From Saccoglossus kowalevskii (Eukaryota; Hemichordata; Enteropneusta; Harrimaniidae), in assembly GCF_000003605.2 (NCBI RefSeq), contig NW_003132850.1, positions 144,474-176,055 on the forward strand: a stretch of 31,582 nt of DNA, written 5' to 3'. Shown piece by piece: positions 2,977-31,290 of the stretch. Numbering within the stretch: the stretch's first letter is position 1; each line of letters begins with the position of its first letter. The notes under the pieces are model-generated. The model ran no database searches. It saw only the letters and a program-made list of their open reading frames with translations, and was not told where the DNA came from. The translations under genes and the position numbers were made by a program.

Positions 2977-3111
2977 CTGTTGTGTACGACTTTGTACAAT
3001 TAAATGTAACAATGTCACTTATACGAAACTGTGGTAACTTCAGTTCGTTGTCTGTCTGTATGGGTTTGTCGGCATGCCAGTCGAAGATCAAATCTTTCGT
3101 CGTATAACCAT
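2977..3111 (-). CDS. Glycine-receptor-like channel subunit, loop B to loop C exon
   Basis: Acceptor CACTCACAG opens the exon in phase 1, and donor G|GTGAGTG closes it in phase 1. The 135 bases read YGYTTKDLIFDWHADKPIQT, then a segment containing ELKLPQF and ending FNCTKSYTTG. With the previous exon this forms MESYGYT (loop B; vertebrate glycine receptors have SFGYT). The invariant Trp and the LPQF strand are present. The Cys of NCTKSYTTG pairs with the Cys of SFTC in the next exon, giving the second disulfide typical of glycine receptors and GluCl but not of GABA-A subunits. NCT is also a possible N-glycosylation sequon. The exon was found by splice phase and similarity; its length is close to the homologous vertebrate exon of about 138 bases. 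Confidence 0.94.
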
Positions 3112-4742: not shown

Positions 4743-4758
4743 TTAACTTGGTTACTTA
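4743..4758. repeat. Target-site duplication, 3' copy of the LINE
   Basis: TTAACTTGGTTACTTA here matches 6079-6094 (TTAACTTAGTTACTTA) at 15 of 16 positions and directly abuts the A/T-rich 3' tail of the minus-strand LINE. The single mismatch suggests a moderately old insertion. Confidence 0.85.
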
Positions 4759-4787
4759 TAATAAAAATAATAATTTTATTAATTGTA

Positions 4788-4807
4788 TAATGGCCTCCGG
4801 CCCATTA
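4788..4807 (-). repeat. GC-rich hairpin near the LINE 3' end
   Basis: TAATGGCCTCCGGCCCATTA is a near-perfect palindrome in otherwise AT-rich sequence, about 30 bases from the LINE terminus. A 3'-terminal stem-loop is where many LINEs are recognised by their own reverse transcriptase, so that role is plausible but inferred. Confidence 0.6.
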
Positions 4808-4961
4808 CAATCATACAAATTAATTATTGACAAGAAATAAATTTACATTACAAAATATGTATGAAAATATAGATAAAGAGGGTGTCAATAGATAATATAA
4901 GCACTATATAATAATGTGATGGGGATATTTATATATATATACATACAAGCTTATTAGCTTA

Positions 4962-6078
4962 TTAGGTTATTCTCATTTGAACTTTGATTAAAAAACACTT
5001 ATAAATAAATAGAGCTAACGAGTTAATGATTTGGCTTTTAGAGGAACTTAATAGTTGTACTAGAGTATTCAAATTCAGGGGTTGTGTCTCATTTGGGAGA
5101 TACTTTTTTCTGATTGTGTCCCATTCAGTGCATTTTAGTAAAAAATGATATTCATCATCAATTTCTTGCAGGCACAAATGACAAATACGGCTCTCCCTAG
5201 GGATATTATTATGTCTGCCTCTTTCTATTTCTAAGGGATGGCACGCACATCTTAATCTTGCTATTGCTCTGCGCAATTTTAATTGTGGCAATGACACATA
5301 GTTTTCAATCCCATAATTTGTTTTGTATTGCCTATAATACTGCGGTGTTTTTTTTTTCGCCAGAACAAACGTCTATATACCAATCTGTAATTCCAGTATC
5401 TTTGACCCGTTCACAAAATTTGTACAAGAACATATCAGAGTCCCCCACCCCTTGATTAAACCAGACATAACCAAATCCATATTTAAATAGCAATTCTTTA
5501 ATTTCTGTGGCCCCATGACCTTGGTCGTTTTTCGTCCAGTGCAAGTAGCATCCGGTAAGCTACTTGGAGTAATCTGTTTTCATCCATGCTAGTAATTTTT
5601 AACCAATATTTCACACATCTTTTAACATGGTAACAAAATAAGGGTAGCCTCCCACAATCCCCTAATACTATACAAGTTGGAGCATTTTTACCTACACCGA
5701 GGTATTGCCTACAATAAGATGTATGTACACTTTCTAAATGTTGACATTGATCATATCCCCAAATTTCAGACCCATATGTAAATACAGGTTGAATTAAGGT
5801 GTCAGAAATCTTAAAATACAAGTCTGCTTTAAAAAAATTGCATATTTCCTAAGTATCTTTTGATTGCAATCAATTTCTTTTTGCCTTTTATAGCTAAATT
5901 TTCTGTGGTAATATTAAAAGAGCATTTACATAACATTACCAATCCCAAGTATTCATATGAACTAACAGTACTAAGTTGCTTGTTCACGAAGTACCACTTT
6001 TCATATTTACTGAGATATCCCCCATTTCTGTATACTACAATTTTAGTTTTAATTAAGTTGATTTTTAAAGTTTTTAAG
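4962..6078 (-). pseudogene. Broken LINE reverse-transcriptase coding region
   Basis: Coding similarity runs through at least three frames. One frame runs from about 6078 to a TAA near 5833 (KTKIVVYRNGGYLSKYEKWY and on to the YLG motif). The second runs from about 5821 to 5498 (the FTYGSEIWG region). The third group covers about 5544-5332 and then 5330-4962, ending with the CHLC knuckle and a TGA at 4962. Each break is a frameshift or stop, so no functional protein can be made. Only the C-terminal third of a typical LINE polyprotein is represented. Confidence 0.88.
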
Positions 6079-6094
6079 TTAACTTAGTTACTTA
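6079..6094. repeat. Target-site duplication, 5' copy, overlapping a splice donor
   Basis: This copy of the 16-base LINE target-site duplication reads, on the minus strand, as intron positions +2 to +17 of the donor GTAAGTAACTAAG that ends the 83-base exon (6096-6178). The LINE begins immediately after it. Confidence 0.85.
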
Positions 6095-6095
6095 C

Positions 6096-6178
6096 AGCTT
6101 TCCATTGTAATTTTGCAGACTTGTGTATCCATTGGAAACCGCTCAAGTGACATATAACATGCCAATTTTAAACTATAC
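6096..6178 (-). CDS. Glycine-receptor-like channel subunit, Cys-loop exon (83 bases)
   Basis: Acceptor TTTGCAG starts the exon in phase 2 (completing an Arg codon) and donor AGCT|GTAAGT ends it in phase 1. It encodes YSLKLACYMSLERFPMDTQV then CKITMES. This is the signature Cys-loop: two cysteines with exactly 13 residues between them and the canonical FPMD. Most vertebrate glycine receptors have CPMDL where this has CYMSL. The Tyr after the first Cys resembles some invertebrate chloride channels. The 83-base length equals, from memory, the homologous exon in vertebrate GLRA/GABRA genes. A LINE lies 17 bases downstream of the donor. Confidence 0.94.
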
Positions 6179-6325
6179 CTGCAAAGATAATATAGATATT
6201 GTCATGGCAACTCAAAATATAATGTATTATAATTTATATATCTGAAACCGAAAACAAGAGAATTCATCTGTCCGTAAAACGCAATACAAACATTGCGTCT
6301 TTAACATTAGTATAAGCAATAATAC

Positions 6326-6537
6326 CGTGTACTGCATAAAATGAATCCATCCTGGTATATCCGGGCTATCTGATTCTCTACAGTGACCGTGTGGAGATGT
6401 CCGCTCTTCTCGTTGGTAAAGAACGCATCAGGGGTCCACAATCGTGTTATGTCGTGCAGGAAGATTGGATCGCTGTCATTATGAGATAGCCGTGGGTCCG
6501 TCCATCGCTGCCGCATGAATATCGATACACCATAATC
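6326..6537 (-). CDS. Glycine-receptor-like channel subunit, loop D/A exon
   Basis: Acceptor CTTTGTAG precedes DYGVSIFMRQRWTDPRLSHN. The exon continues through LWTPDAFFTNEKSGHLHTVT and ends at ACA CG|GTATTA in phase 2. FMRQRW carries the Phe and Arg of loop D that line the agonist site in glycine receptors. W-PD-FF-NEK is the loop A strand found in all glycine-receptor and GluCl subunits. NDS at residue 20 is a potential N-glycosylation sequon. The 212 bases compare with about 224 in the vertebrate exon; the shortfall falls in the variable loop after DPRL. Confidence 0.94.
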
Positions 6538-9016
<2,479 letters not shown>

Positions 9017-14948: not shown

Positions 14949-15133
14949 TATCACGTGGTATTTTTGTATGAGTACGTCACGCAATCTGCTGACTCGAAGG
15001 CAGCCAATGATTTAGAGGTTGCAATATCACGTGGTACTTTTGTACGACTACGTCATACAATCTGCTAACTGGAAGGCAGCCAATGATTTAGGGGTTGCAG
15101 TATCACTTGGTACTTTTGTACGAGTACATCATA
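14949..15133 (+). repeat. 76-base tandem repeat, about 2.4 copies
   Basis: TATCACGTGGTA at 14949 recurs at 15025 and, as TATCACTTGGTA, at 15101, giving a period of 76. Each unit continues with TTTTGTAYGA, a CGTCAY-CAATCTGCT segment and GGCAGCCAATGATTTAG. Copies differ at several positions. A related single copy (GTCACGTGGTATATTTGTTCGA) appears near 22907. The CACGTG palindrome and the CCAAT inside each unit are possible factor sites, but no function is shown. Confidence 0.88.
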
Positions 15134-15339: not shown

Positions 15340-18300
15340 ATAACCCCATATTGTCATATACTGAGTATGTATATTGAAAATGGATGTCAGCAGATATGTT
15401 TGCAAATCAAAGTTATGAATTTCAATTCAGGAGAACGAAAACAAATACTGTTTGGTTGGCTATACGTCTTAAAAGTCTATTGTGGATGTATGGTTTTGGA
15501 GAAGTATGGAACAACCAGGGTATGAGAAAAAAAATTGTCTTTCTAAATGAATTCGAATAAAGATGACAAGACATTGATAAACAACACAAGTCATAGGGTG
15601 TACCTGAAAGTGCTAAACTCGGTTCATATAAGTATGTTTTGTCTTCAAAGTGCTACCTTTTCTAAATAGACCAGATTCATTTGCGAGTGCTCATATTTAA
15701 AGCATCGGCGTCCAGCCTCGAAATTGAATCAGGTCGAAATGAGGGTGTAAACAGAGAATCTGACCTGTTTGTTTCAACAACTGTATTGATGTTTATTGTG
15801 CCTAATTTATCTTCATGTTATAAATTCATATATCTCCTCATTTTACAATCAATCGCCAATGAAAATAAAATGTTATTGATTAATGAGTACTGACACTGCG
15901 ACTGATACCTTAACCGCTGAGTTTGTCAAAGTTTGTATATTATATTGTTTTTATATTATTATTTTGTATCGAAGTTCGATGGCCATAGTGACCGTGCTCC
16001 TCGTGAACCAACTACGAACGAGGCTATCATTTAATGACGTAATCGGACATAATTTCACGTGCACAGGCAAATGATCTATTTCTCAACCGCAGCTGGATCT
16101 CAACCAGACCGTGTTTTCCATGAACTGAAATGCGGTAATTAGCAACATATTTTAGGAAACGTTGAGTAAATTATTTTATTTTATATTAGTTTTCTGTCTG
16201 TGCGTCCTCCACGCGACCAATCAACAAGTTGGATACTGGACACCATATTTACACTAATATATATTTATCTGTCAATTATATAAAGGTGTTTAGCGACTGT
16301 AAACCAAAGGTTATCTCATTATATTTTTAAATGGGACGAATACCGGTTAATGGCTAAATGTTTCGGTTTCGCTTAATGTGATGTTATCATTGGCATTGCA
16401 AAGTAGATCAATTAACGTCTACTTTGGCAATATTTTAACGTTTTTAATAGTTGTTGGAACACGTGCAAATAAGGTTAGTGTCAATTAAAATTCCCCTATG
16501 GACATGCTGGTGGGCACTTTATTTGCATATTAAATAATTAAATGATAGCATAATGAACGGGTGCGTGTATTTTTCTGTCAGCGGTGTACTTTTATGTTTT
16601 AATATTCAATTTGAAGAAAGGACAGTGGGCGATATAGCAATTTAATTCACACCATGTGACCTTAATCGGATACTTGTCCGCTATATGCGTCATTACATTA
16701 CAAGTTCTATGTGATTGTACATCACACACAATTACAAAATTGAGACGACCATTAGATCAATACGCGAGGTGAGAGGTCCAACCATTTTACATTCCCTTTT
16801 TTTCAGAAAATCCTTATCTCTCATTGTTTTGTCGCGATTTGTTTTATTATTATTTATATATTTTTTGTGCTTGAATTGAATTGATAAATTTTCAGTGCTT
16901 ATTCTTTCTTCTTGATTTACGGATTCTTTTCTGGCAGAATAAGATAAGTGTCAATATACCACGTGATTTGAACGTGGACTGTTGACAAGTGCAATACAAC
17001 TACTGAGAGTATCCAAACAATTCAACACGTGTATTGTTACGACGAATACATGCATAATAAATAGAAGATCGTCAAAATTTCTCATAAAATATGCATCTAC
17101 TGTAATCATACTGCTAATAATTTATAAGACAGTTACACAAAGTAAGTTCATTCTCTTGAGAGTTTCAATTCGTGATGAAATCGAATTCAGTAGCATTGGA
17201 AACATAATTAACACTCGTTGGATATAAGGTTCTGTTCCGAGATCTCGGTCGGGTTGTAGCTAGAGCTGTCACTAAAATTTTTTGTTGAAGTCGACGATAC
17301 ATATAAGCACGCGCTGTATCACTGAATTGTCCGCGGGTTATTGTACTGTTTTTTATTTAAAAAAAAAATCCCGAATTTTGTTTGTTTGTCGCATTTGTGT
17401 GTCGGCATTGTTGTCGATAAATTTGCGTCAAATACAGCGACAAGAGCGCGTCGTCAACATTTGCTTGATAATAGAATGGAACGCTGGATTAACCAATTGG
17501 CGGGATTTAAAAAAGGTCATTTTGCGCGCCCTCATGATAAACACGTGGAGGTGTCACAGACTCTTTTAACTCAGATGGCGGTGTTAGACAGACATCCAAG
17601 ACACTGTCAATCCGAACAACACTGTTCAATTAGCTGAAAAAAGGTAAATTGTTCCGTTTGCGTGAAAGGGTGAAAACTAACCTAGATGCTCGGGTTATTT
17701 AATGTCATAAATGAGTGTTAATTATAAATATCGCAATTACTTTAAATTCAATGGCATAGCTGCAAGACGTTCTGCATCTTTTTCTTTTCCGGACTTACGA
17801 TGAAATCAACATTTTCAAATCATAAATATAGCTTGAGTTGATTTTGCCAATAATGGAAACATTCAACAGAAATCAACGAGTGTATTTTTTGGAAAACGCA
17901 AAAGGAAACACAGTCACTGAATTAAGATTTACATATTAATAATCTAATTTAACAAGTAAATTGTCTTCATAGCATAAATCTAACCGTGCTACCTACAACT
18001 CAGCTACAAACGGTTTTTAAGGAAAATCATCGAATATAGCTACTTGAACAGAGTTGAGGAGATATCCAATCATTGCCGTGGTTTGCATTAATTTAATGAA
18101 ATTCCACTATAGAATAAAGTCCCCAAAGGTATGTAACCGCATAATGATCACTGTTTTCTATAGTAATAAAGGAAGTGGCAATTCGCTTGTTTTGTTAACA
18201 TTTTAATAAACAAAATGCTAGTATTGACATGGGATTTGTTCAGACATTCACTGAAAAATTAAGCATATTTATTTTAACTTTTAGTTTTCTGATTTTCAAA

Positions 18301-26478: not shown

Positions 26479-26722
26479 GCACCACTGTACCATGTATTCC
26501 CATGGCCTATGCCCGAGCTGCTGTGGAACGCCGGTCGAAAAGTCGGTGAAAACAACTAAAGTCGCGAAAACAGCACAAACACAACTTTGAGGTAATCCTA
26601 GGCAATCAAATGTATACATGTTGCACATGTATGGGTAGCCTTGCTAAACTATTCAGAGGAGTCCCAACAACTAGCCCAAAGTACCGTTTCCTGAAAGTTT
26701 TTCAGTTTTTTGTCTTCACCCG
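26479..26722 (+). repeat. Diverged interspersed repeat, copy A
   Basis: About 240 bases align, end to end and in inverse orientation, with 31061-31290. Shared blocks in order are GCACCACTGTA, GCTGCTGTGGAACGCCGGT, AACACAACTTTG/AACTCAACTTTG, GTAATCC, and AAAGTACC, closing with a GTCTT...TTCACC block. Small indels and substitutions are scattered through it. It has no coding capacity and no similarity I recognise. Confidence 0.88.
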
Positions 26723-31060: not shown

Positions 31061-31290
31061 CGGTGAAAACAAAGACCAGAAACTCGCCGAAAATGGTACT
31101 TTGGAATGGTTGCTGAGGCTCCCCTGAACAGTGTAACAAGATTAGCCCTACGTGTGTAACATATGTAAATTTGGTTGTTCGGGATTACTTCAAAGTTGAG
31201 TTTGTGTTGTTTTCTCGAATTTTCACCGGCTCCACCGGCGTTCCACAGCAGCGCGTACAGAGCCCATAGAAATGCATGTACAGTGGTGCG
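31061..31290 (-). repeat. Diverged interspersed repeat, copy B (inverted relative to copy A)
   Basis: Aligns in reverse with 26479-26722, including the identical 19-base block ACCGGCGTTCCACAGCAGC (31234-31252). It is flanked by imperfect inverted copies of the CGCCCTCT motif (30844 and 31303), which may be its terminal repeats; copy A lacks them at matching places and may be truncated. The 74-residue plus frame across it is probably incidental. Confidence 0.88.

Follow-up and report, generated by a model that had tools for sequence, protein, structure and literature searches.

Among the closest described systems is the spastic mouse, in which a LINE-1 in intron 6 of Glrb is reported to cause exon skipping (PMC3484359, PMC7433344, PMC6466679). 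LINE-1 insertions at MET exon 14 likewise appear to cause exon skipping (PMC12934576), and in T-Wis an ETn element is described at the exon 7 splice donor (PMC6466679). In human and mouse, the retrotransposons found less than 20 bp from exons show a strong bias toward the donor side; the authors of that survey attribute it to the short intronic signal of the donor, ~6 bp (PMC3088655).

The locus analyzed here lies in a 31,582-nt stretch of the Saccoglossus kowalevskii genome (hereafter the window). As in spastic, which is a close precedent, a LINE interrupts an intron in a gene for an inhibitory Cys-loop receptor; however, the spastic element is reported as a full-length L1 in the '-' orientation with exon skipping, whereas the element in the window is truncated and has the sense orientation. 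The MET insertions are also truncated LINEs in or beside an exon, several of them with duplications, but they are described as exonic or acceptor-proximal, while this LINE is located by the donor (PMC12934576). The T-Wis ETn shares the position at a donor and differs in being an LTR element of '-' orientation, with aberrant transcripts reported (PMC6466679). The donor-side survey is mammalian and partly concerns full-length elements, and the sense orientation is the one disfavored for LINEs in it, yet this LINE holds it (PMC3088655). Our best explanation, in which we have high confidence, is that the LINE retrotransposed into an old intron after the Cys-loop exon, and that the resulting target-site duplication rebuilt the splice donor.

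According to the Pfam matches and solved-structure relatives, the minus strand of the window carries a Cys-loop receptor gene, which is glycine/GABA-receptor-like; glycine receptors are the best solved relatives of two gene pieces. All of the gene features below are on this strand. The ligand-binding domain (PF02931) is divided between an upstream exon of 212 nt (6326–6537; Neur_chan_LBD E-value, 5.4e-12 on 6307–6537) and an exon of 83 nt (1 + 81 + 1 nt; 6096–6178; E-value, 3.4e-07 on 6097–6177), and the transmembrane region (PF02932) was matched by three pieces, 1986–2333, 1336–1800, and 127–363, the last of which falls below Pfam's cut-off. As read from the translation, the 83-nt exon contains the whole C-x13-C Cys loop. 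Its frame is kept on both sides: the joins to the upstream exon and to a downstream exon of 135 nt (2977–3111) give ...GFILCSTR-YSLKLACYMSLERFPMDTQVCKITMES-Y-GYTTKDL.... The 5' splice donor of the Cys-loop exon is GTAAGT (6090–6095, +1 at 6095), and its join to the acceptor before 3111 yields MES-Y-GYTTKDL. On the gene strand, the donor reads GCT|GTAAGTAA. Scanning the window for Rfam families and tRNAs gave no matches, and an AlphaFold model of the C-terminal piece was set aside (mean pLDDT, 46.5). A nearly perfect (AAAT)30 array is located at 7192–7311, upstream of the 6326–6537 exon on the gene strand.

The intron following the Cys-loop exon measures 2,984 nt in total and 1,648 nt without the insert. 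In introners, target bases that were duplicated can serve as splice sites, and it may be asked whether the LINE itself made this intron or its donor through such transposon-driven intron gain. The LINE is, however, entirely within the intron, and 1,648 nt of intron remain once the insert is removed. In mouse, we take exon 5 of Glra1 to be the Cys-loop exon. It is 83 bp long, the same as the exon in the window (PMC3484359). Since the reading frame continues across both joins of the 83-nt exon, which also has the length of the mouse exon, the intron is probably old and predates the LINE. The length of the intron and the conservation of the exon thus speak against an origin of the intron or donor from the LINE, which was rejected and which we regard as extremely improbable.

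The element occupies 4759–6067 on the minus strand as a 5'-truncated LINE in the sense orientation of the gene, with a (TTA)n-like tail at its low-coordinate end. A search of the genome (572 Mb, 4830 contigs) revealed at least 46 matching places, the window included, and 40 of the 52 candidates were scored. A query made of the 3' end found 42 places, largely those found before, plus four new loci; with both queries combined, at least 43 distinct loci are present. The copies have in common the 3' end with its hairpin and (TTA)n-like tail, while their 5' ends vary. Four pieces of the longer copies were compared with the reverse transcriptase family RVT_1: one piece of locus L007 matched it with an E-value of 5.1e-12, two pieces of L005 did so at 5.4e-6 and 1.3e-6, both below Pfam's cut-off, and the fourth piece gave no RVT_1 match. 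LINE-1 ORF2p was a further match of the L007 piece (2.3e-5). On the basis of the reverse transcriptase in the longer copies and of interspersed copies with variable 5' truncation, the insert is identified as a LINE (non-LTR retrotransposon). It may belong to a CR1/L2/Jockey-like clade, as its motifs, the 3' hairpin, and the (TTA)n-like tail suggest. In one copy, L024 (G000:C3688:126275-128635), the (TTA)n tail extends at least 70 bases beyond the matched part.

For the window copy itself, no Pfam or NCBIfam match to a reverse transcriptase was found, the only hits being to zf-AD below threshold (E-values, 0.02 and 0.22). One piece of it gave a single meaningless match to solved structures (E-value, 1.7), two pieces as well as the 3' hairpin had no relatives in viral_contigs, and one piece had none in genome_contigs. 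The 3'-terminal hairpin of the LINE (4775–4818, minus strand) stands ahead of the tail and contains the only AATAAA of the insert. Folding of the window copy gave −12.6 kcal/mol for it (z, −2.74), and an equally stable structure arose in four of 200 shuffles.

Other repeats were also observed in the window. A related LINE is represented by another, diverged fragment on the opposite strand at 15468–15761 (+), with 33% identity over 105 aligned amino acids (E-value, 5e-6) and stops. Another repeat is present as inverted copies at 26479–26720 and 31062–31289 (74% identity over 242 aligned bases), and 2.4 copies of a 76-base unit (88% matches) occupy 14949–15133.

The 5' boundary of the LINE was examined by comparison with nine other copies that reach the element start. 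Counted from the exon-proximal end of the insert, the match begins at element position 12 in seven of them, at 14 in one, and at 25 in one, and longer copies run on into common upstream sequence that is absent from the window. As the other copies start matching at position 12 or later, the LINE proper is 4759–6067, and the 11 bases at 6068–6078 (minus strand) are extra bases of the 5' junction outside the LINE. The initial annotation had placed the element at 4759–6078; the greater part of that interval is indeed LINE, and its last 11 bases, unmatched in longer copies, are not. For the count of divergence, 33 of 39 loci were aligned (L011, L012, L014, L024, L026, and L033 were excluded). In the window copy, 27 private substitutions were found in 1270 judged columns (2.1%), in addition to five indel events.

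The insert is flanked by a 16-base repeat, of which the copy at 4743–4758 reads TTAACTTGGTTACTTA and the copy at 6079–6094 reads TTAACTTAGTTACTTA, both features being on the minus strand. The two agree at 15 of 16 bases. On the gene strand, the exon-proximal copy, intron positions +2 to +17, is TAAGTAACTAAGTTAA; the string GTAAGTAAC is common to both copies, and the sole difference is at +10. One difference in 16 agrees with the divergence of the window copy. The distal copy has an A before it, as the initial annotation had noted, which gives AT in place of GT. The missing G matters little, since the distal copy is ~1.3 kb into the intron. The base before the proximal copy is G (6095), which leaves exon|GTAAGT intact. 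This agrees with the earlier view that GTAAGT stands intact at the proximal copy, with the correction that the copy itself begins TAAGT and that the G of the donor is outside it. The (TTA)n-like tail may account for the first 1–2 bases of the duplication, whose exact start is uncertain to that extent, and the nick may have fallen at G|TAAG or GT|AAG.

A match of 15 of 16 is not decisive by itself, because a pair at least as good occurs anywhere in the 1.9-kb region in seven of 60 shuffles; together with the 11 bases that separate the proximal copy from the LINE, this would suit a LINE inserted without duplication next to a chance repeat. The repeat is, however, at or near both element edges. 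From base composition, the chance of such a pair at the edges drawn in the initial annotation, with a slack of 10 bases, is ~3e-5; an order of 1e-4 or less is the fairer figure, since one edge had been set by the duplication and lies 11 bases from the true one. For a null drawn from the family, 5' and 3' flanks from different LINE copies were paired, using 23 of 39 loci (the excluded ones were longer than the query, lacked the 3' end, or had a masked 5' flank). None of the 506 swapped pairs reached the score of 13.0 obtained in the window, and the maximum was 10.25, which makes a chance repeat very improbable. With the repeat at 15 of 16, the exon and donor joining in frame, and a LINE family in the genome, the original observation as a whole was confirmed: the LINE landed in the intron a short way past the donor, and its duplication consists of the donor's own intronic bases.

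Among the 23 copies, 12 score above the 99th percentile of the swapped-flank null and 11 do not. The target-site duplications of the family vary in length. Among the 12 are L008 and L025, which sit in tandem repeats and whose duplication scores may be false. One copy, L034 (G000:C1176:166931-168347), has an unusually long perfect duplication of ~38–42 bases. The intron-side flank of the window copy occurs at a single place in the assembly, and neither an empty allele nor an ortholog turned up. The insertion is presumably fixed.

Retrotransposition into the intron would have proceeded as follows. Target-primed reverse transcription would start from a nick in the antisense strand within the donor, falling between +1 and +2 or between +2 and +3, and the RNA would be copied from its (TTA)n-like tail, with an early stop leaving the 5' truncation and the 11 extra junction bases. 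The sense strand would be cut deeper in the intron, after +17, and fill-in would leave one copy of +2 to +17 on each side. With both sides filled in, the exon would again be complete and followed by GTAAGT and the adjoining intron bases. The order of the nicks would be the one given here. The present layout, read from the exon, is the G of +1, the duplication from +2 to +17, the 11 extra bases, and the LINE from +29, so that foreign DNA begins past intron base +17.

The initial annotation held that the insertion missed inactivating the receptor by about one base, and this does not agree with the position of the foreign DNA after +17 or with a scan of offsets. With a 16-nt duplication, every start from 10 bases before +1 up to the limit of the scanned range preserves the exon and the donor through +6. 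From the observed start at +2, the duplication could thus begin 11 bases nearer the exon with both still intact, and it is for this reason that the estimate of one base is wrong. With a duplication length of 0, in contrast, the identical nick would split the donor. The duplication rebuilt the donor, and the insertion was no narrow escape.

Under the retrotransposition reading, donor use is expected to be normal or nearly normal, in an intron 1,336 bases longer. A different outcome would be a splicing hypomorph, in which the donor is intact and the sense LINE causes the Cys-loop exon to be included less often or some transcripts to end prematurely. The exon side of donors has the consensus CAG, and the GCT found here matches no base of it, so this donor leans on its intron bases. 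Its predicted pairing with U1, at −7.0 kcal/mol, falls within the range spanned by three further donors of this gene (−4.4, −13.0, and −6.5 kcal/mol). The insert brings one AATAAA, but the native intron already holds three. In spastic, exon skipping from the LINE-1 in Glrb intron 6 is reported to leave less than 25% of full-length beta subunit, and mammals have a deficit of sense-oriented LINEs close to exons (PMC3088655), so a mild effect on splicing is possible. Against such an effect, the intron bases through +17 are all kept, the insert is free of GTRAGT, and the examined exons are in frame. The ~2% of private substitutions indicates that the copy has persisted for some time. A simple acceptor pattern was absent from the insert, but the same pattern misses the real acceptor of the gene in that intron and is given no weight. 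On this evidence, we consider a hypomorph unlikely.

It was further considered that the endonuclease of this LINE family prefers T|AAG-like sites, which are offered by GT|AAGT; donors would then be natural landing sites, and the duplication would make such landings survivable. In a first, looser set of 15 copies, TAAR was found in seven (P = 6e-4) and TAAG in three (P = 0.007). The second set, of 13 copies, was formed by dropping L019, L025, L033, L036, and L038 and adding L011, L072, and L073; L008 was excluded from both sets because of its tandem repeats. The three added copies were the only ones to reach at least 11 among ten further copies scored (L002, L003, L004, L005, L011, L014, L070, L072, L073, and L075, the last without a 3' end), and they were scored for duplication without being placed against the swapped-flank null. 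In the second set, TAAG lies within 4 bases of the duplication start in 3/13 copies versus 1.9% of random flank positions, with P = 0.002 including the window copy and 0.02 without it, for a motif that was chosen after the window copy had been seen. The broader TAAR was found in 4/13 (P = 0.03; 0.10 without the window copy) and was set aside. Microhomology between the tail and the target was considered as the cause of site choice and not demonstrated, with at most 1–2 matching bases. Judged by title, none of the papers listed for LINE target preference and splice donors was on point, and no claim of absence is made. A preference of the family for donor-like sites is thus a tentative lead and, in our judgment, quite doubtful.

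Taken as the retrotransposition event described above, the locus is an ordinary, well-preserved LINE insertion near a splice donor, with no sign here of danger to the gene. It provides a clean case of how a retrotransposon can persist just downstream of a donor, in that the duplication copies the donor bases back. It would have wider importance only if the LINE family favors donor-like sites or if the insertion lowers splicing of the receptor.
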